Positions 1,066 through 24,042 of a stretch of 64,000 nucleotides of DNA are shown here, in pieces. Position numbers and translations under genes: made by a program. The notes beneath the pieces were generated by a model. The model was not told the DNA's origin, searched no databases, and was given only the letters and a program-made list of their open reading frames with translations. Positions within the stretch are counted from its first letter, which is position 1. Each line of letters starts with the position of its first letter. Where the stretch lies: assembly GCF_900099775.1 (NCBI RefSeq), contig NZ_FMTM01000006.1:124001-188000 (forward strand). Direction: 5' to 3'. The stretch is from Rhizobium mongolense subsp. loessense. Lineage in GTDB: Bacteria > Pseudomonadota > Alphaproteobacteria > Rhizobiales > Rhizobiaceae.

Positions 1066-1515
1066 TCAGTGCCGCGTTTCTTCGTCCATATCCGGCGCTG
1101 CCCACATCTTTTCGATGTTGTAGAACTCGCGGATTTCGGGGCGGAAGACGTGCACGATGATATCGCCGGTGTCGATCAGGACCCAATCACCGCCGTCCTT
1201 GCCCTCAACGCGGGCTGCGCCAAAGCCCTCGTCTTTCAAGTCGGTGAGCAGATGATCCGCGATCGCCAGGACATGGCGGTTCGATCGGCCGGAGACGACG
1301 ACCATATAGTCCCCCAACGCAGATTTCCCAGCAATGTCGATGGTGACGATATCTTCAGCTTTGGAGTCCTCAAGGCTTGTGAGGACAGCTTGCAGAGCGC
1401 GGGCGGCAGCATCGGCGCCACGTTCCAGGCTCTTCGGGACAACGGCGAGCGTTCTTCCCTTGGCGTGTACTGTTGTCAGTGCTTTTCCTTTCCTGCAATA
1501 ACAGAACATGCGCAT
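1066..1515 (-). CDS. rsfS: Ribosomal silencing factor RsfS (Iojap family)
   Basis: The core SLEDSKAEDIVTIDIAGKS, then DYMVVVSGRSNRHVLAIAD, VEGKDGGDWVLIDTGDIIVHVF and the end RPEIREFYNIEKMWA, is the RsfS/Iojap fold that binds L14 and blocks subunit joining under nutrient limitation. Coordinates use the ATG at 1515 (149 residues). The start is uncertain: no ribosome-binding site precedes 1515, whereas AGGAAAGG lies 7 bases before an in-frame CTG at 1479-1477, which would give 137 residues starting L/M-TTVHAKGRT. In most Rhizobiales nadD precedes rsfS directly; here the two are 5.6 kb apart, so rsfS must have its own promoter in 1516-1711. Confidence 0.9.
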   Translation of the reverse strand: MRMFCYCRKGKALTTVHAKGRTLAVVPKSLERGADAAARALQAVLTSLEDSKAEDIVTIDIAGKSALGDYMVVVSGRSNRHVLAIADHLLTDLKDEGFGAARVEGKDGGDWVLIDTGDIIVHVFRPEIREFYNIEKMWAAPDMDEETRH

Positions 1516-1711
1516 CACTGATTTGGGCGAACCAAATCATGGTTAAGATAGGCATCAAACCGTTAATCTTTCAAGACACGAGCCGGTTATCATTTCGCGA
1601 AGACTTAAATTCGCGTTCAAGATTTATGTCGTTACCGGCAGCAAGGCGGCTGTGTACAGCGCCAACGGCCAAGCGTAAAGTGGCTTCGAGTTTCCGTAAC
1701 TGCAGAACCGA

Positions 1712-2089
1712 ATGGACACTACCGCCAGAAATCAACTCGTTCCCATCCTACGCATCAGCTTTCCACACGAGGATCGCCTAGGCCGCGGCAAGATGGAACT
1801 CCTGGAGCGCATCCGCGAAACCGGCTCGATTTCGGCAGCCGGCAGGGCGATGGACATGTCCTATCGGCGCGCCTGGTTGCTCGTCAGCGACATGAACCGC
1901 ATGTTCAACGCGCCGGTAGTCGAATCCCAGCGCGGCGGCCAGAAGGGTGGCGGCGCTGCGCTGACGCCATTTGGCGAGGAGTTGCTGTCCCGGTTTCGGC
2001 ATATGGAGGATGCCATGCGAACTGCCCTTGCGGGTGATCTTGCCTGGCTGGAAGGCAACCGCAGTCAGGCCGAAGCGGCAAGAAAATAG
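1712..2089 (+). CDS. Single-domain ModE-type molybdenum-responsive regulator
   Basis: The 125-residue protein is a winged helix-turn-helix of the ModE N-terminal type (RILLERIRETGSISAAGRAMDMSYRRAWLLVSDMNRMF-like block, helix-turn-helix about residues 37-62, then the wing with GGGAALTPFGEELLSRFR). Classic ModE adds two C-terminal molybindin (TOBE) domains that bind molybdate; these are absent, so this is the short form seen in several alpha-proteobacteria. It presumably represses modABC. It is convergent with modC: its TAG (2087-2089) abuts the modC stop (2090-2092) with no gap. How a protein without a Mop domain senses molybdate is not evident from sequence; ModC carries such a domain. The ATG at 1712 lacks a strong ribosome-binding site. 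Confidence 0.8.
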   Translation: MDTTARNQLVPILRISFPHEDRLGRGKMELLERIRETGSISAAGRAMDMSYRRAWLLVSDMNRMFNAPVVESQRGGQKGGGAALTPFGEELLSRFRHMEDAMRTALAGDLAWLEGNRSQAEAARK

Positions 2090-3157
2090 TCAAGGCTGCA
2101 GGGCGACTGTCTTGATGACAGCGAAGACAGGCTTGTTGGGCACAAGATCGAGCCTCTCAACCGACAGTGCGGTGATGCGCGACAGGATGATATCGCCGCC
2201 GCAGTCGATCTGCACCTCGACCGTTCCGTCTTCCGCAGGCGATATCTGTCGGACGATGCCGTCAATAATATTCAATGCACTTAAACCTTCCGGCCTGACG
2301 GTCGCCAGCATGACATCGCGGGAAGGAATGTGGACGCGAACGCGCTTGCCCGACGGCACCGTAGCACCCGGCACATAAAGGCGGGACGCCTTCAATGCGA
2401 GCGTCGCAAGCCGATGTTTTTCATCGAAGCTTTCGATAGCGCCTTCCAGAAGGGCGCCTGCTTCGCGCCGGTCTTCGGCCGCCGAAGGCCGGCTCAGCAC
2501 ATCGGTCGCGCTGCCCGCGGCCTCAACCTTGCCATCGTGCATCACGACGACCTGATTGGCGAGGCGTGCCACTTCTAAAATCGAATGGCTGACATAGACG
2601 ATCGGAATCTGTGTCTCGTCACGCAGCCGTTCGAGATAGGGCAGGATCTCGGCTTTGCGGGCCTCGTCAAGCGCTGCGAGCGGTTCGTCCATCAGCAAAA
2701 GACGCGGAGAGCAAAGCAGCGCACGGCCGATCGCCACCCGTTGCTTTTCTCCGCCTGAGAGGTTGGAAGGGCTCCGATCGAGCAGGCTTTCGATACCGAG
2801 CAGGTCGACGATGTGGTCAAAGTTTCCGGTTGGCGAAGCCTTCGGCGCGAACCAGCTTCCATAGGAGAGGTTCTTTCGAACGCTCAAGTGCGGGAAGAGC
2901 CTGCCATCCTGGAAGACATAGCCGAAACGGCGGCGATGGCGGGGAACGAAGATGCCTTTGCCCGTGTCGGTGAGTGGCGTACCGTCCAACAGAACCCGGC
3001 CTTCATCCGGTCGGACGAGGCCGGCAATGATGCGGATCATCGATGTCTTGCCCGAACCGGACCGGCCGAAGAGGGCTGTCACGCCGACCTCGGAGGTAAA
3101 GGCTGCATCAAGGGTGAAGGCACCGAGGCGGTGCCTGGTTTCGATGGTGAGCGTCAT
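2090..3157 (-). CDS. modC: Molybdate ABC transporter ATP-binding protein ModC
   Basis: The 355-residue ATPase has Walker A GRSGSGKT (31-38), signature LSGGEKQR (133-140), Walker B LLLMDEP (153-159) and an H-loop VSHS around residue 210. The C-terminal part (from about 290) is a TOBE/Mop domain ([20 protein letters not shown]), which distinguishes ModC from generic ATPases and can bind oxyanion. It energises molybdate import in the inner membrane with ModB and ModA. The start overlaps the modB stop by four bases (ATGA at 3154-3157), indicating translational coupling. It is the last gene of modABC and ends tail-to-tail with the ModE-like gene. Confidence 0.93.
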
Positions 3158-3852
3158 TCCGGGTCTATCCTTCGGCCCGCGAGATGCGCCATGAATTCAG
3201 ACGCCAGCAGCGCTGACATGGAGATGACGATAGCAACCAGCGTAAGGCGCATAGCGCCGGCATCGCCGCCTGGGACCTGGGTGAATGTGTAGATGGCGGA
3301 CGACAGCGTCTGCGTCTCACCCGGGATGTTCGACACGAAAGTGATGGTTGCGCCAAATTCGCCCATGGCCTTGGCAAAGGACAGGATCATCCCAACGATG
3401 ATTCCAGGCGTCGTCAGCGGCAGCGTGACGGTCAGGAACACCCATAGCGGGCTCGCGCCAAGGGTGCCTGCCGCTTCCTCGATCCTGCGGTCGATCGCCT
3501 CGATCGAAAGCCGTATGCTTCGGACCATCAGCGGGAACCCCATGACCGCACAGGCGAGAGCTGCGCCTGTCCAACGGAAGGAAAAGACGATCCCGAAGTA
3601 TTGATCCAGCAAGCTGCCGATCGGCCCCCTGCGTCCGAAAAGGATCAGAAGAATGAAGCCGGTGACGACCGGCGGAAGGATCAGCGGCAGATGAACGATG
3701 CCATTGACAACAGCCTTGCCATAGAAGCGGCCGCGGGCAAGAAGCAGCGCAACCGCAATGCCGAACGGCAAGCTCGCGAACATGGCGACAACGGAAACCC
3801 GCAGGCTGAGCAAGATCGCCGTCCACTCATCATTGCTCAGGCCAAAATCCAA
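3154..3852 (-). CDS. modB: Molybdate ABC transporter permease ModB
   Basis: The 232-residue inner-membrane protein has five or six hydrophobic segments (for example residues 17-39, 52-73, 95-112, 145-165, 205-222) and the permease EAA loop [15 protein letters not shown] near residues 125-139, where the ATPase docks. The start [20 protein letters not shown] is typical of ModB. It forms the molybdate channel with ModC. It is separated from modA by 49 bp and overlaps modC by four bases, so modABC is one minus-strand operon. Confidence 0.93.
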
Positions 3853-3901
3853 GTTGGGTATCTCCGATAGATCGGTTCGAAGCTGAGGATAAAATCCCTA
3901 T

Positions 3902-4696
3902 TCACTTCAGGATCGTAAAGCCCTGCGCAGTAAAGAAGGGGGCGGCGTTCTCCGACTTTAGAAACTTTAGATAGGAAACCGCGTCCGGGTTCTTGCTGGC
4001 GGCAAGCAGGGCGAGAGGGTAAATGATCGGCGGATGTGAATCGGCTGGAAACATGCCGACGATTGCGACGCCTTCATCTGCCGCCGCATCTGTCTGATAG
4101 ACAATGCCATAAGGCGCTTCGCCGCGGGAGACGAGCGCAAGAGCAGCACGCACGCTTTGCGCACCTGCAATCTTTGGCTCCACCGATGTCCAGACGCCGA
4201 GCTTTTCGAGCGCGGCCTTGCCGTATTTGCCAGCGGGGACGGATGTCACTTCTCCCATGGCGAGCCTGCCATCACCAAGAAGACCGGAAAGATCGAAGCC
4301 CGGCTTGATATCGACCTGCTTTGCCTTATCGCTGGCAGTCACCAGCACCATGCGGTTGCCAAGGAAGTCTGCGCGGGTGTCTTCCCTGATCAGGCCTTTC
4401 TTGGCGACGTAGTCCATCCAGTCGAGATCGGCGGGGATGAAGATATCGGCTGGTGCGCCACTTTCGATCTGCTTGGCGAGTGCGGAGCTCGCTGCATAGG
4501 AAGCGACGGCCTCCTTGCCGCTTTCCTTTCCCCAGGCTGCATTTGCGGCATCAAGCGCATTCTTGAGGCTCGCCGCCGCAAAAACGGTAATTCTATCTGT
4601 GGCGCCTGCTGGCTGCGGCAGCAGCCCGGCAGCGCCAATCCAGGCCATGGAAAACATTCCGACTACGCGTTTCATCCATTGCCGGCGATTATACAT
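3902..4696 (-). CDS. modA: Molybdate-binding periplasmic protein ModA
   Basis: The 264-residue solute-binding protein has the ModA opening ITVFAAASLKNALDAAN (about residues 36-52), the block SSALAKQIESGAPADIFIPADLDWMDY and the late motifs GEVTSVPAGKYGKAALEKLG and APYGIVYQTDAAAD. Mature start is probably after PAGA (about residue 33). The N-terminus NRRQWMKRVVGM resembles a twin-arginine signal, unusual for ModA, which is normally Sec-exported. A ribosome-binding site AAGGAGA lies about 10 bases before the ATG. It captures molybdate (and probably tungstate) for ModBC. Two palindromic elements sit immediately upstream and probably mediate ModE repression. Confidence 0.92.
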   Translation of the reverse strand: MYNRRQWMKRVVGMFSMAWIGAAGLLPQPAGATDRITVFAAASLKNALDAANAAWGKESGKEAVASYAASSALAKQIESGAPADIFIPADLDWMDYVAKKGLIREDTRADFLGNRMVLVTASDKAKQVDIKPGFDLSGLLGDGRLAMGEVTSVPAGKYGKAALEKLGVWTSVEPKIAGAQSVRAALALVSRGEAPYGIVYQTDAAADEGVAIVGMFPADSHPPIIYPLALLAASKNPDAVSYLKFLKSENAAPFFTAQGFTILK

Positions 4697-4711
4697 ATCT
4701 TCAATTCTCCT

Positions 4712-4780
4712 TCGAAATATTCAGAGGAATATATCGATATCAATCAAATTGGCTAGGGATATGTTTCGAGGAATATATCG
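4712..4780. promoter_or_regulatory. Putative ModE-type operator pair upstream of modA
   Basis: TCGAAATATTC (4712-4722), a 4-base spacer and GAATATATCGA (4727-4737) form an inverted repeat with 10 of 11 matches. The half-site GAGGAATATATCG occurs at 4724-4736 and again at 4768-4780. The palindrome begins just upstream of the modA ribosome-binding site and overlaps an AT-rich -10 candidate (TATATT on the minus strand). ModE proteins recognise AT-rich palindromes of this kind, and a modE-like gene lies in the same cluster. Binding itself is inference. Confidence 0.55.
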
Positions 4781-5060
4781 TCGTCCAAATTGTTCGAAAT
4801 CGGCCAGACGGACGACAGGCTTGCCGCAGTATAGCCGGTACCTTGAGATGGCCGACGGTTGGGGCGTGTGTGGTCGATGCGAACCTGGTCAACAGGGGTG
4901 ACGGTACCCAACTGGAGGCAGGTGAAATCAAGGACAGGGTTGGTGAAATTCGCTTCCTTGGCATCGACGGAGGACATATGCCGCCGCATGTGGTAGCCGA
5001 AAGCCGGCTCCCAAGGGAATTGACCCGCCAAGCACGGGGCAATCGAAATGCGTCACATCC
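4781..5060. other. Intergenic, no gene supported
   Basis: Between the modA regulatory region and the Tad-like gene there are only short open frames on both strands, none with a recognisable family, a ribosome-binding site or consistent codon use. I see no RNA structure here. Confidence 0.5.
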
Positions 5061-6308
5061 TCATTGGACAAGCCGGACGGCACCGAGATTATTGATCTCG
5101 TTGTTCGCCAGTTCCGACTTGCAATCGAGCTTGAAAGTGCTGTTGCCGGTCATGGTAATTTTCTGGGCGATGATTCGGACGCAGTCGCCAGACGTCGTAC
5201 CATTGCCGGAATACTCGACTTCTTCAGCTGCAGGCATGTAGATGATGCCGCTGATGTTCGAGTTGCTGTTGCCATTGATCACTGCGGATGCAGTGTTATC
5301 GCGGTCGGCGACGATAACGAAACCCGCCCATGGCCCCGATGTCGGGGCAGTGACGTTAACGGTCGAACCGCCATGAATGTCGATTTCAGCGCCGTTGAGC
5401 AGAAAGAATGTGATCCCTTCGCCGGTGATGACCGACTGGCTCCCGAAACTCAGCTTGCCCCCGTCGATGATATAGTCGCCGGGTTGCAGCTTCACAGCGC
5501 CCTTGATTTGGAGACCCTTGTACGTCCCGGGCTCCAGTTCGCCGGGGCCCCTGTTCTTGGCCAACGCCCCTGTTTTCGGCATCGTTTTTTGTCTGAACGG
5601 GTCAAGGGCCGCTGCCGTTCCCTCGTACGGCTTGTCGCATTCGAGATCGATTTTGGACGGCGAGGCCGAGACTTTACCTGGCGTATAAAGACATTCCGTC
5701 TTCAGGCTACCTGATCCACCGATATAGATGGCTTCGTTGCTGCGCGAGTTTGCGGTGATCGCACACTTCGACGTGTCGACCTTCGAACTACCGGTGACCT
5801 CGAAGGCGCGATCTGCCGTCGGGCTGAGCGCGAGAATGCAGGCTTCGTTGCCCGCTTGGTAAGCGGTGCTGCTGCGGCGGGAGATAGGGAATGATAATCG
5901 AGTCAGGAATACCGGGTGATAGTTGACTGCATAGTCAGCTGTCGCCATTACCTGCTGTCCCGCCAGGGAATAGGCGATATGCAAAGATGGAGGTTCCGCT
6001 GCCGGGCTGATTGCATCCTTGCCCTGAGAGACGGCACCCGCCTCTTGATAATTGCCGAAGAACATTTCGTTCGCCAATTGCGTTGCTTCCGCCTCGCTAT
6101 AGCCCTCGCCGTAAAGGCGCACCGCCGCAAGCGTGGCGCTGTCCAGCGCCTCCTGCAACTTGTCGGCCTCGAAACTGGCATTAACGAAGTCGATCGCGAC
6201 GGAGCCCGCCCCCAGCAAGGGGACGATTGCAACCGCAGTCAGGATTCCAAAGTTGCCGACCTCGTCACGAATAAATCGATCGACATGCCGTTTGAGAACT
6301 TCACGCAT
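5061..6308 (-). CDS. Tad-like (TadE/TadG-type) membrane-anchored protein with beta-rich C-terminal domain
   Basis: The N-terminus MREVLKRHVDRFIRDEVGNF followed by GILTAVAIVPLLGAGSVAIDF (about 21-41) is the Flp-pilus Tad domain: a short cytoplasmic basic segment, one transmembrane helix, then the block FEADKLQEALDSATLAAVR. About residues 160-400 are Gly/Ser/Thr-rich with repeated short strands (GTYKGLQIKGAVKLQPGDYI, GSQSVITGEGITFFLLNGAEIDIHGG), suggesting a right-handed beta-helix. The real start is probably ATG 6308 (415 residues), preceded by GGGGCG; an in-frame TTG at 6335 is less likely. No other tad or cpa genes lie nearby, so it is an orphan. Its role, cell-surface or pilus-associated, is inferred from the N-terminal domain only. 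Confidence 0.75.
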   Translation of the reverse strand: MREVLKRHVDRFIRDEVGNFGILTAVAIVPLLGAGSVAIDFVNASFEADKLQEALDSATLAAVRLYGEGYSEAEATQLANEMFFGNYQEAGAVSQGKDAISPAAEPPSLHIAYSLAGQQVMATADYAVNYHPVFLTRLSFPISRRSSTAYQAGNEACILALSPTADRAFEVTGSSKVDTSKCAITANSRSNEAIYIGGSGSLKTECLYTPGKVSASPSKIDLECDKPYEGTAAALDPFRQKTMPKTGALAKNRGPGELEPGTYKGLQIKGAVKLQPGDYIIDGGKLSFGSQSVITGEGITFFLLNGAEIDIHGGSTVNVTAPTSGPWAGFVIVADRDNTASAVINGNSNSNISGIIYMPAAEEVEYSGNGTTSGDCVRIIAQKITMTGNSTFKLDCKSELANNEINNLGAVRLVQ

Positions 6309-7004
6309 TAGTACGCCCCAGTTCCGAGTAGCCAAGCCGACACATTAGATGTTAGCAATATACGATTGATTGCCACGTTCATTCGAATTGTACGTATTCC
6401 AAAGAATACAAGTCCTACCCGTATATGCCGAGACGCCGTTTTTACGCATCCTGGAACAGTTGGACCTATCCAGCGCAAGTGCTCATGCGCAGGTCATCAT
6501 TTTGTTCGGCAAGTAGCAGCCACGCGGAAAACGCGGGGCACATTGCCCCGAGCTTCGAGGGCCAAGGTGGCCGAGGTCGATCAGATACCAAGGCGGAGAC
6601 GGCTGGTAAGCTGCTCGGGAGTCCGGACCCAATTGCTCCAGCATCGGAGGCCGCGTCGGGCCAAATGCTGCCCTGCCGTGATCTTGTTTGCCACTTATGT
6701 CCGAACATATGTGGACCAGTCGGCAACCGCTACGGCGTGACGCGGCGAATCCGGCCTGATCCTAACTTCGTTGGTTTTGTGGCCTCTCCGGCTTGAGGAC
6801 CGCTCCGCCCTCTCTTCTGGAACTAGAATTCCGCTCACGGGGATACCCTTTGAGAGGGTCACTGACTGTGCGACGCCTTAGGCCATCTTCCCAATGCCGC
6901 AAAAAGCGGCAATGTTGCAATATTGATTCGAGGAGCCCTGCGCACATCGCATTGCTGCAATGCAATATACGATATTCCAGTTTTCCGAAGTTATGATAAA
7001 ACAT
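6309..7004. other. Intergenic, about 0.7 kb without a supported gene
   Basis: Several overlapping open frames of 80-124 codons exist on both strands, but they lack ribosome-binding sites and recognisable families and conflict with one another. The right end must hold the promoter of the sRNA that starts near 7005; TATGAT at 6992-6997 is a possible -10 element, without a clear -35. Confidence 0.5.
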
Positions 7005-7125
7005 ACTTATCGAAACGGCGATCTCCTCCTCCCAAAGCCGTTAGATATGGGTCGGCAGCACTCCTCCTCCCAGCTGTCGATCAAGTTTATAAAGCCCGAC
7101 GGATCCTCCCCCGTCGGGCTTTTCA
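7005..7125 (+). ncRNA. Alpha-r14 family sRNA (NfeR1/Smr14C2-like), three anti-Shine-Dalgarno hairpins
   Basis: Three consecutive hairpins each expose a CU-rich loop. Hairpin 1: AACGGC (7014-7019) with GCCGTT (7037-7042), loop containing CTCCTCCTCCC. Hairpin 2: TCGGCAGC (7052-7059) with GCTGTCGA (7073-7080), loop ACTCCTCCTCCCA. Hairpin 3 is the terminator, 7091-7122, with ATCCTCCC in its loop. The layout (about 120 nt, conserved CCUCCUCCC motifs in the loops, terminator last) is that of the alpha-r14 trans-acting sRNAs of Rhizobiales, such as NfeR1 of Sinorhizobium meliloti, which pair with Shine-Dalgarno regions of transporter mRNAs. The 5' end is estimated. Family membership is recognised from structure and motif, not from an alignment. 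Confidence 0.8.
7091..7122. terminator. Bidirectional rho-independent terminator (sRNA end; nadD end)
   Basis: A 12-bp perfect stem AAAGCCCGACGG / CCGTCGGGCTTT encloses an 8-base loop. On the plus strand it runs into TTTTCATTTG and ends the sRNA. On the minus strand it lies 29 bases beyond the nadD stop and ends in TTTATAA, so it probably terminates the obgE-nadD transcript too. Confidence 0.85.
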
Positions 7126-7150
7126 TTTGTCAGCCTTCCTGAAATTGCCG

Positions 7151-7771
7151 CTACTCAGCCGCTTTGCGAATAGCGGTCGAGCTCAACGCAGAGCGCGGGC
7201 CATGAATAAAGGTCCAGGCAGGCGCAGATTTTTTCCAGAGCACGCGGGCATCGTCCTCGTCGATACGGGCGAAATCGAAGGTTTTTGCCATTTTCGACGA
7301 GAGATAGGAAAGCGTCGCGCCGGGACGATCGATGACGGCGATCGGAAAGGTGCGCGCGATCTCTTGCCACTTTTGCCATTTGTGGAAGGTTTGCAGGCTG
7401 TCGGCACCCATGATCCAGATGAAATGGATGTTCGGATTGCGCGCCTTTACCCTGGCGAGTGTGTTTGCCGTGTAACTGACGCCGAATGTTTGTTCGAACG
7501 CAGTCACCTTGATATGCGGATCGGTTGTGATCGCTTCGCTGAGTGCGATCCGCTCGGCAAGCGGCGCAAGATGGTTGCGATTCTTCAGCGGATTGCCAGG
7601 TGTCACCATCCACCAAAGTTGGTCGAGGGCGAGGCGCCGTATGGCGATCTCCGCAACCAGTGCGTGCCCCTGGTGCGGTGGATTAAACGATCCGCCGAAA
7701 AGACCGACGACCATGCCGCGTTCGGTGTGCGGCATGCGAAGGTAGCGACGGTCTATTTCGGCTGTCGTCAC
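7151..7771 (-). CDS. nadD: Nicotinate-nucleotide adenylyltransferase NadD
   Basis: The 206-residue enzyme transfers AMP from ATP to nicotinate mononucleotide in NAD synthesis. It has the nucleotidylyltransferase motif GGSFNPPHQGH (about residues 26-36), the loop VTPGNPLKN, the block FIWIMGADSLQTFHKW, and the closing motif SSTAIRKAAE equivalent to ISSTxIR. The frame is open further upstream into proA, but GTG 7771 lies one base after the proA stop and gives a normal length; ATG 7735 and ATG 7714 are alternatives. It is the last gene of obgE-proB-proA-nadD. In relatives rsfS follows directly; here a terminator and an sRNA follow instead. Confidence 0.92.
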   Translation of the reverse strand: MTTAEIDRRYLRMPHTERGMVVGLFGGSFNPPHQGHALVAEIAIRRLALDQLWWMVTPGNPLKNRNHLAPLAERIALSEAITTDPHIKVTAFEQTFGVSYTANTLARVKARNPNIHFIWIMGADSLQTFHKWQKWQEIARTFPIAVIDRPGATLSYLSSKMAKTFDFARIDEDDARVLWKKSAPAWTFIHGPRSALSSTAIRKAAE

Positions 7772-7772
7772 G

Positions 7773-9048
7773 TCAGGGCCGCGTTTGTCCGGTGCCGCGC
7801 ACGCGGTATTTGAAGGAGGTAAGCTGCTCGACACCTACAGGACCGCGGGCATGCATCTTGCCCGTCGCAATGCCGATTTCCGCACCCATGCCAAACTCGC
7901 CGCCGTCGGCGAATTGCGTGGAAGCGTTGTGCAGCAAAATGGCCGAATCGATCTCGGTGAAGAATCGCTCGACGACGACCGGATCTTCCGCGATCACGGC
8001 TTCCGTATGGTTCGACGAATACTTTTGGATATGTGCGATCGCGCCGGAAATGCCGTCCACGACGGCAACGGAAATGACTGCATCGAGATATTCGGTCGAC
8101 CAATCCTCCTCGGTCGCCGGCTTAATGCCCGGGGCAACCTTCAACACCGTGGCGGATGCGCGGATCTCACAGCCTGCCTCGGCCAGCGCTTCGAGAAGCG
8201 GTGTCAGATGCGTGCCGATTGCAGCGCCGTCGACAAGCAGGGTTTCCACGGCCCCGCAGATGCCTGTGCGGCGCATCTTGGCGTTGACGATGATCCTCGT
8301 TGCCATTTCGATATCGGCAGACTTGTCTACATAGATGTGGCAAAGGCCTTCGAGGTGGGCAAATACTGGCACGCGAGCTTCGTTCTGCACGCGCGCGACG
8401 AGGCTCTTGCCGCCGCGCGGCACGATGACGTCGATTGCACCTTCCAAGCCCCGCAGCATGGCGCCCACGGCGGCACGGTCCGAAACCGGAACGAGCTGTA
8501 TGGCATGCTCTGGAAGATCGGCTGTCTTCAACCCTTCAACGAGGCAGGCATGGATTGCCTGCGACGAACGGCGCGAATCCGAACCGCATCGCAGGATCAC
8601 AGCATTGCCTGCCTTCAGGCAAAGCGCACCGGCATCTGCCGTCACATTCGGCCGGCTTTCGAAGATGACGCCGATGACGCCGAGAGGTGTGCGCACCCGC
8701 TCGATCTTCAGTCCGTTCGGCCGGTCCCAGGCGGCAATCACTTCGCCGACCGGGTCCTTCAGAGCGGCAATGGCGCGGATGCCTTCGGCCATTTCGGTGA
8801 TGCGCTGGTCGTTCAGTGTCAGGCGGTCGATGAAGGAGGCAAGCATATCGGTGCCAGCGACATCCTTCAGATCCTTGGCGTTTTCGGCAAGGATGTGCTC
8901 CTTGCTTGCGAGGATCGCGTCGGCCATTGCATACAGCGCCTTGTTCTTGGCCTCGGTGGACGCAAAGCCTAACGGTCGTGCCGCTGCCTTGGCCTTGCGG
9001 CCGATGTCGTTCATCAGCGCATCAATGTCAGGGCCTTGCACAACGGTC

Positions 9049-14540: not shown

Positions 14541-14630
14541 GGAGAGGTGGCAGAGTGGTTGAATGCACCGCACTCGAAATGCGGCATGCCTGCAAGGGCA
14601 TCGGGGGTTCGAATCCCCCCCTCTCCGCCA
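14541..14630 (+). tRNA. tRNA-Ser(CGA)
   Basis: The 90-base class II tRNA has the acceptor stem GGAGAGG / CCTCTCC, anticodon stem CCGCA / TGCGG around loop CTCGAAA (anticodon CGA, reading UCG), a long variable arm with ATGCC / GGGCAT, T arm GGGGG-TTCGAAT-CCCCC and an encoded CCA end. tRNA genes of this kind are common integration sites; integrase remnants occur 2-4 kb downstream, but I found no second copy of the tRNA 3' end in the window. Confidence 0.97.
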
Positions 14631-22964: not shown

Positions 22965-23112
22965 GCGAGACAAATTTTACGGTTTGTTTGTTCCGTTTTG
23001 ACAGAAGCTGCGGAATGGGAGTGGCAGCGCGACGCAATACGGCTTTTGGGCAGTGCCCGAAGTTCCGGCGTGAGGAGGGTGCAGCCGGACACCGCTTTGT
23101 GGAGGAAATAAA

Positions 23113-24042
23113 ATGAGAAAGTTTATCCTGGGCACTGCGATGGCGCTCGTCATGTCGACGGCGGCTCACGCGGAAACCATTGGCGTTTCCATGGCGCTTT
23201 TCGATGACAACTTCCTGACCGTTCTGCGCAACGGCATGCAGGATTACGCCAAGACGCTGGATGGCGTAACGCTGCAGGTGGAAGACGCACAGAACGACGT
23301 CGCCAAGCAGCAGAGCCAGATCCAGAATTTCATCGCATCCAAGGTTGACGCCATCATCGTTAATCCGGTCGATACCGATGCCACCACCGCCATGTCGAAA
23401 ATTGCTGCCGATGCCGGAATTCCGCTCGTCTACGTGAACCGCGAGCCGGTGAATGTCGATGCGCTACCGGACAAGCAGGCCTTCGTCGCTTCCAACGAAC
23501 AGGAGTCCGGCACGCTGGAAACGAAGGAAGTCTGCCGCCTTCTCGGTGGCAAGGGCAAGGCTGTCGTCATGATGGGCGAGCTTTCCAACCAGGCTGCCCG
23601 CATGCGTACCAAGGACGTCCACGACGTCGTCGCGACCGACGAATGCAAAGGCATCGAGATCGTCGAAGAGCAGACGGCCAACTGGTCCCGCACCCAGGGT
23701 TCGGATCTGATGACCAACTGGCTCTCCAGCGGCATTGAATTCGATGCCGTCATCTCGAACAACGACGAAATGGCAATCGGTGCGATCCAGGCGCTCAAGG
23801 CTGCCGGCAAGGATCTGAGCAAGATCGTCATCGGCGGCGTCGATGCCACACAGGATGCGCTCGCCGCCATGCAGGCCGGCGACCTCGACGTGACGGTGTT
23901 CCAGGACGCTGCCGGTCAGGGTAAGGGCTCGCTTGACGCGGCTCTGAAGCTCGCCAAGGGCGAAAAGATCGAGAAGAAGGTCTATATTCCCTTCCAGCTC
24001 GTCACGCCGGAAAACGTCAAGGACTTCGTTGCCAAGAACTGA
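23113..24042 (+). CDS. Sugar ABC transporter substrate-binding protein (inositol/rhizopine type)
   Basis: The 309-residue protein has a Sec signal peptide (MRKFILGTAMALVMSTAAHA, cleaved after Ala20) and a periplasmic-binding-protein type I fold. The mature start ETIGVSMALFDDNFLTVLRNGMQDYAK, with IIVNPVDTDATTAMSKIA, LVYVNREPV, MMGELSNQAARMRT and ISNNDEMAIGAIQALKAAG, closely resembles the rhizobial myo-inositol/rhizopine-binding proteins (IbpA, MocB). An AGGAGGAAAT-like ribosome-binding site (GTGGAGGAAATAAA) precedes the ATG. An IolR-like operator upstream supports inositol or a derivative as ligand. It is followed by a stem-loop and then by the ATPase and permease genes. Confidence 0.9.
   Translation: MRKFILGTAMALVMSTAAHAETIGVSMALFDDNFLTVLRNGMQDYAKTLDGVTLQVEDAQNDVAKQQSQIQNFIASKVDAIIVNPVDTDATTAMSKIAADAGIPLVYVNREPVNVDALPDKQAFVASNEQESGTLETKEVCRLLGGKGKAVVMMGELSNQAARMRTKDVHDVVATDECKGIEIVEEQTANWSRTQGSDLMTNWLSSGIEFDAVISNNDEMAIGAIQALKAAGKDLSKIVIGGVDATQDALAAMQAGDLDVTVFQDAAGQGKGSLDAALKLAKGEKIEKKVYIPFQLVTPENVKDFVAKN

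Follow-up and report, generated by a model that had tools for sequence, protein, structure and literature searches.

The 64-kb stretch of DNA analysed here (the window) carries, at positions 7005–7126 of its plus strand, a member of the ar14 (alpha-r14) family of small RNAs with three anti-Shine-Dalgarno hairpins. Our reading, to which we assign a probability of roughly 85%, is that this RNA acts in trans by blocking ribosome-binding sites, that it is probably activated by LsrB, and that it is perhaps modulated by NtrC where an NtrC-type dyad is present. When the window was scanned against 4227 Rfam families at their curated cut-offs, only two matches exceeded the cut-off: a tRNA (14541–14627) and ar14 (RF02344, 7005–7126), the latter with 94.5 bits against a cut-off of 58.8. 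At E = 5e-16 across the window, the element as a whole is beyond chance. A preceding sequence-only reading had proposed an architecture like that of alpha-r14 RNAs such as NfeR1 of Sinorhizobium meliloti, which a covariance-model search should recover; the ar14 model indeed matched end to end (model positions 1–123 of 123), and the fold, loop conservation, covariation and NfeR1-type operator motifs in the promoter described below agree with it. The window RNA genuinely belongs to a known RNA family and is well conserved, so that the result confirms more than it surprises. New here are the covariation, the two operator motifs and the finding that the place at nadD is shared across the clade.

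The predicted plus-strand fold consists of three hairpins (MFE = –49.1 kcal/mol, z = –6.5; as stable in 0 of 200 shuffles), and a CCUCCUCCC-type motif is unpaired in the loop of each. Hairpin 1 spans 7008–7047 (core stem 7014–7019/7037–7042) with the loop CTCCTCCTCCC at 7023–7033, hairpin 2 spans 7050–7082 with ACTCCTCCTCCCA at 7060–7072, and the terminator-like hairpin 3 spans 7091–7122 with ATCCTCCC at 7103–7110. The three CU-rich single-stranded loops quoted in the sequence-only reading were thus all found, and all are unpaired in the fold. The third motif is short (UCCUCCC), as it is in many other nadD-linked copies. The last hairpin had also been called a strong terminator. It does match the terminator pattern, with 12 pairs followed by a T-rich tail, but the pattern scan of 6300–7400 found 2 sites against a shuffle mean of 1.2 and by itself is not above chance.

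Covariation was counted among 53 distinct sequences, which were left when 22 RNAs with identical letters had been dropped from a set of 75 orthologues. The 24-pair consensus structure was paired in 99.9% of cells. Both-side changes were observed at 9 of the 24 pairs and in 52 cells, against shuffle means of 3.1 and 6.6 (0 of 500 shuffles as high, a comparison that relatedness among the sequences inflates), and most of this signal was lost when the partners were slid by 1–3 columns. The changes fell at 2 of 3 modelled pairs in hairpin 1, 5 of 10 in hairpin 2 and 2 of 11 in hairpin 3; only three pairs of helix 1 were modelled, as its outer part aligns with gaps. The loop motifs were invariant across all 53 sequences, while the stems varied yet stayed paired. 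These compensatory changes support the predicted structure.

On our reading, the locus has its own promoter, from which an RNA of ~120 nt would run in the direction of nadD until the third hairpin ends the transcript. The three stems would hold the CCUCC-type loops open, and many mRNAs would be blocked in translation by pairing of these loops with their purine-rich ribosome-binding sites, as for S. meliloti NfeR1. The three motifs of NfeR1 are reported to act redundantly (passages of PMC10746234), and by analogy the three loops of the window RNA may be interchangeable antisense seeds.

Two candidate operators were found upstream by sequence match, with distances taken from a reference that precedes the first loop motif by 18 nt (position 7005 of the window). 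An exact match to the LsrB binding consensus GCAT-N3-TG-N3-T, as given in passages of PMC8844928, lies at 6949–6961 (plus strand, –56) and is a candidate operator of LsrB/VtlR type. Further upstream, at 6895–6911 (plus strand, –110), the NtrC-like dyad TGCCGC-N5-GCGGCA fits TGC-N11-GCA, the NtrC-type motif of NfeR1 (passages of PMC10746234), and falls within the about 100–116 nt upstream sought for NfeR1-like regulation. A probable core promoter (ATATTC ... ATGATAAAACA; 6972–7003, plus strand) has partly conserved columns in the 75 loci and is weak relative to the sigma-70 consensus; a consensus scan of 6300–7400 found no sigma-70 site (shuffle mean 0.8), which would fit dependence on an activator.

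The LsrB consensus was present at –54 to –56 in 73 of the 75 nadD-linked loci, and the two exceptions differ from it by one base. With both strands counted, the 64-kb window contains 11 instances of the same pattern, the site upstream of the sRNA included, or ~0.003 per 35-nt stretch. TGC-N11-GCA was found at –108 to –111 in 48 of the 75 loci, and anywhere in ~3% of shuffled upstream sequences; being missing from this position in the other 27 loci, it is not universal. Since orthologues share ancestry, these operator counts show conservation, not independent events. Of 18 other ar14 copies, one being the weak match described below, that were examined in four genomes, nine had the LsrB pattern no more than 100 nt ahead of where the model starts, and the pattern was present in 27 of the 35 ar14 loci fetched (L001–L036 without L006, missed by pattern; the window copy and other nadD-linked copies are included). 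The genome to which the window belongs also contains an AbcR-like pair, and the LysR gene next to it is, by position and domains, a candidate for LsrB. For NfeR1, activation by LsrB and repression by NtrC have been reported (passages of PMC10746234). In the window, LsrB probably activates the promoter, and NtrC may repress or modulate it where the dyad is present; under such control, the RNA should respond to stress and to nitrogen supply.

We searched for further copies of the RNA. The same genome (6.73 Mb, 32 contigs) contains five ar14 copies over the cut-off plus one weak match (C15:11074–11170, L151; 38.6 bits, C-rich loops), which was left out of the copy count and is perhaps a decayed ar14 copy or an unrelated hairpin RNA. 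Among 61 genomes (this one and 60 relatives), 46 had an ar14 match, over the cut-off in 38, and matches were present in all 37 genomes of the same genus, this one included. No match was found in 14 unrelated control genomes. With several copies per genome, the nadD-linked one could be redundant and weakly used while another does most of the work, for example that at C16:1041350, which has the same promoter type and an LsrB pattern that likewise lies at –56. Of the six ar14 copies of S. meliloti, Northern blots gave reliable detection of only one under the conditions tested (passages of PMC7143759), so the window copy could be silent or conditional; the passages of the cited papers are silent on which ar14 copies matter in Rhizobium. 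However, the invariant loops in 53 sequences and the LsrB pattern in 73 of 75 loci argue for selection on the nadD-linked copy itself, and we regard its redundancy as possible but doubtful.

The RNA converges on nadD (7151–7834, minus strand; Pfam CTP_transf_like), which is 97% identical to nadD of R. mongolense USDA 1844. The gene rsfS (1066–1518, minus strand; named from the sequence-only reading and by eye), on the far side of the interrupted junction, is 5.6 kb from nadD. Between the two lie, besides the sRNA, the molybdate transporter genes modCBA (2090–4696, minus strand; modA by Pfam SBP_bac_11, modB and modC named by eye), a gene for a short LysR-type HTH protein conserved beside modC (1712–2089, plus strand; Pfam HTH_1; probably ModE, a name we infer) and, between the sRNA and modA, a TadG-like pilus-assembly gene (5061–6335, minus strand; Pfam Tad, 27 bits, cut-off 22.3).

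A scan with nadD, of which the best 80 of 515 relatives were kept, placed an ar14 RNA converging on the 3' end of nadD in 74 of 74 Rhizobium-group loci (L037–L110, comprising Rhizobium and Rhizobiales/Rhizobiaceae records). The first motif scan gave 63 of these and reading of the sequence the other 11; a revised pattern matched exactly once at the nadD-linked place in each of the 75 loci, window included. The six most distant loci (L111–L116: two Agrobacterium, Ciceribacter, Shinella, Sinorhizobium and R. oryziradicis) had no ar14 beside nadD and a nadD-rsfS spacing of 84–210 bp, and in each of the five of these genomes that were searched (L111–L115) ar14 was present elsewhere. The sRNA, modABC and the short LysR-HTH (ModE-like) gene were found together between nadD and rsfS, in a gap of 3.6–7.2 kb, in all 72 loci spanning the junction (L038 and L073 were dropped from the 74, as their contigs end before rsfS). 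The sequence-only reading was right that the sRNA sits where the nadD-rsfS junction is broken, but the break is clade-wide and not confined to this genome. On the same count we rejected an origin of the break specific to one genome, and we take the broken junction as a shared, probably old arrangement of the Rhizobium group.

Flanking DNA at several ar14 loci was ~95–96% identical to R. mongolense, and the window sRNA was identical; together with the nadD identity, this marks the host as a Rhizobium near that species. The TadG-like gene gave no tblastn match (E 1e-8) within the stretches fetched for the 80 relatives. R. mongolense has in its place an ORF of 595 aa (L037:9272–11056), adenylate cyclase-like by eye; the differing genes between the sRNA and modA indicate that the gap takes up extra genes. 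A ModE-like dyad, CGATATAT...ATATTTCG, was also noted just upstream of modA (4697–4760), and a pattern of this type precedes modA in 55 of 74 loci, the window being one of them.

The geometry of the junction bears on a second alternative, in which the hairpins are mainly a shared terminator and 3' region of nadD, and the small RNA merely arises alongside and regulates nothing. Hairpin 3 does lie between the converging 3' ends (the nadD stop at 7151 and the RNA end at 7126), and read on the reverse strand it likewise leads into T-rich sequence. However, invariant CCUCC loops in three hairpins, covarying stems and a conserved operator motif upstream on the plus strand are all more than a terminator needs, and four other ar14 copies over the cut-off are found elsewhere in the genome. 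We therefore consider this alternative very improbable, and retain the reading of a trans-acting RNA.

Targets of such an RNA were sought by predicted loop pairing. GGAGG-type sites had been noted at 23101 and 25681 before transporter genes of the window, and both are real: they precede the starts of a Peripla_BP_4 protein (23113, GGAGG) and a BPD_transp_2 permease (25697, GGAGGGAGG), with an ABC_tran gene (start 24121) between the two; all three assignments are by Pfam. The leaders of the genes at 23113, 25697 and 24121 (stretch –30 to +15) gave –16.2, –16.5 and –18.4 kcal/mol, respectively, against a 10% point of –17.6, a 25% point of –14.5 and a median of –11.3 kcal/mol among 892 genes (stretch –25 to +12). 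By this model, the three leaders are good but not exceptional predicted targets. Strong ribosome sites are common in the window, where 13 of 37 genes reached –14 kcal/mol or better.

The 892 genes came from a home-made caller applied to the window and to 60 further stretches of the same genome, each 20 kb long (~19% of 6.73 Mb), and motif-based labels marked 41 of them as ABC-type transporter genes. No enrichment of labelled transporters was observed among the best targets at any of four cuts (2/45, 4/89, 9/134 and 13/223 versus 39/847, 37/803, 32/758 and 28/669 in the rest; P = 0.60 at the 4/89 cut and 0.15, the smallest of the four, at the 9/134 cut). Pfam domains were also compared between the best 90 genes and 90 controls picked randomly among the remaining 802. 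ABC_tran was found in 7 of the best and at most 1 of the controls (it was not among the 25 families listed for controls), BPD_transp_1 in 3 versus 2, and SBP_bac_1 in 3 versus 2. Peripla_BP_4 occurred 3 times in the best 90, as did LacI-type regulator domains, so the Peripla_BP_4 matches may be regulators. Labelled transporter genes have stronger Shine-Dalgarno sites anyway (P = 0.03), a confound that makes the Pfam enrichment suggestive at most. Since strong ribosome sites are common and the enrichment is mixed, we infer rather than observe transporter repression, that of the local genes in particular. GGGAGG, complementary to CCUCCC, also stands shortly ahead of the start of the ORF that precedes ntrC and that we take, from its position, as ntrB; this core match is shorter than the published NfeR1-ntrB pairing of eight nucleotides (passages of PMC10746234). 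Action on the neighbours modABC and nadD is a further alternative, favoured by the joint presence of sRNA and modABC in the nadD-rsfS gap of all 72 spanning loci. It is very improbable, as the modA leader (AAGGAGAA) pairs weakly (–8.7 kcal/mol, weaker than the 892-gene median, which was taken on a slightly shorter stretch), and modA was rejected as a special target.

Among known systems, NfeR1 (Smr14C2/SmelC397), which affects nodulation and nitrogen metabolism in S. meliloti (passages of PMC10746234), resembles the window RNA in its alpha-r14 family, its three hairpins and its loop motif and, as far as the published passages describe it, in an LsrB consensus upstream with TGC-N11-GCA further upstream. 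Unlike the window, the one Sinorhizobium locus examined (L114) has no ar14 beside nadD, and the window RNA is at best ~73% identical to the five over-cut-off ar14 copies of that genome; we do not claim orthology to NfeR1. AbcR1 and AbcR2 (alpha-r15; suhB, RF00519), which are separately present in the genome studied here, likewise carry anti-Shine-Dalgarno motifs and have ABC-transporter targets, with AbcR1 under LsrB (passages of PMC8844928 and PMC7143759), but they belong to another family, have two motifs and bind Hfq. NfeR1 is reported without Hfq binding, while AbcR1/2 interact with Hfq (passages of PMC8844928), so Hfq co-immunoprecipitation would be a poor test for the window RNA.

Similarly, the RFM RNAs SmelA075 (three hairpins) and SmelA099 (four hairpins) are built of hairpin modules with CCUCCUCCC loops and stems that vary; each genome has several copies, and local microsynteny of these RNAs in R. 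leguminosarum is described (passages of PMC3927594). The main text of that paper contains neither nadD nor rsfS; the locus may nevertheless be among its members. RS0680a-type stress RNAs of Rhodobacter sphaeroides also have an anti-Shine-Dalgarno motif in each hairpin, with two hairpins versus three in the window RNA, a likeness drawn from their description (passages of PMC3927594). The nadD-linked copy is not mentioned in the passages covered of PMC10746234, PMC7143759, PMC3927594, PMC8844928, PMC2881028 and PMC5596092, although it may have been reported. A term search of PMC3738593 gave no match, nor did the main text of the R. etli tiling-array study match the locus-tag numbers assumed for this region.

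A tentative evolutionary reading is that a second NfeR1-type regulator, specific to the lineage, arose in the Rhizobium group when an ar14 gene with LsrB and NtrC operators came to lie, along with the molybdate-uptake operon, in the nadD-rsfS junction; in this clade, which includes symbionts of bean, pea and clover, the silencing of uptake genes at their ribosome sites would thereby depend on nitrogen status. We think it a speculative possibility, on the unlikely side. The nadD-linked copy is an obvious one to study first, with the same place in 74 of 74 loci and, in many, both NfeR1 regulator motifs.

Variant forms were noted among the other ar14 copies. Some (L148, which is C14:310895 of the same genome, L158, L159, L162, L166 and L032) have an extra CCUCC hairpin just upstream, giving a four-hairpin form comparable to RFM SmelA099; in all of these except L032, the LsrB pattern was recorded at –93 to –95 from the start of the three-hairpin model. 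Sinorhizobium sp. A49 (L156, about 4944–5352) has a tandem pair of copies ~160 nt apart; in the 170 nt ahead of each, the first lacks the LsrB pattern and the second has it. The Rhizobium region L150, which is partly syntenic with this one, contains a single match to ar14. The copy in L150 (C15:235674 of the same genome as the window) and L165 have a CTATAT box ~70–80 nt ahead of the model start and GC-rich sequence after the box, so their transcripts may be longer, with extra 5' structure.
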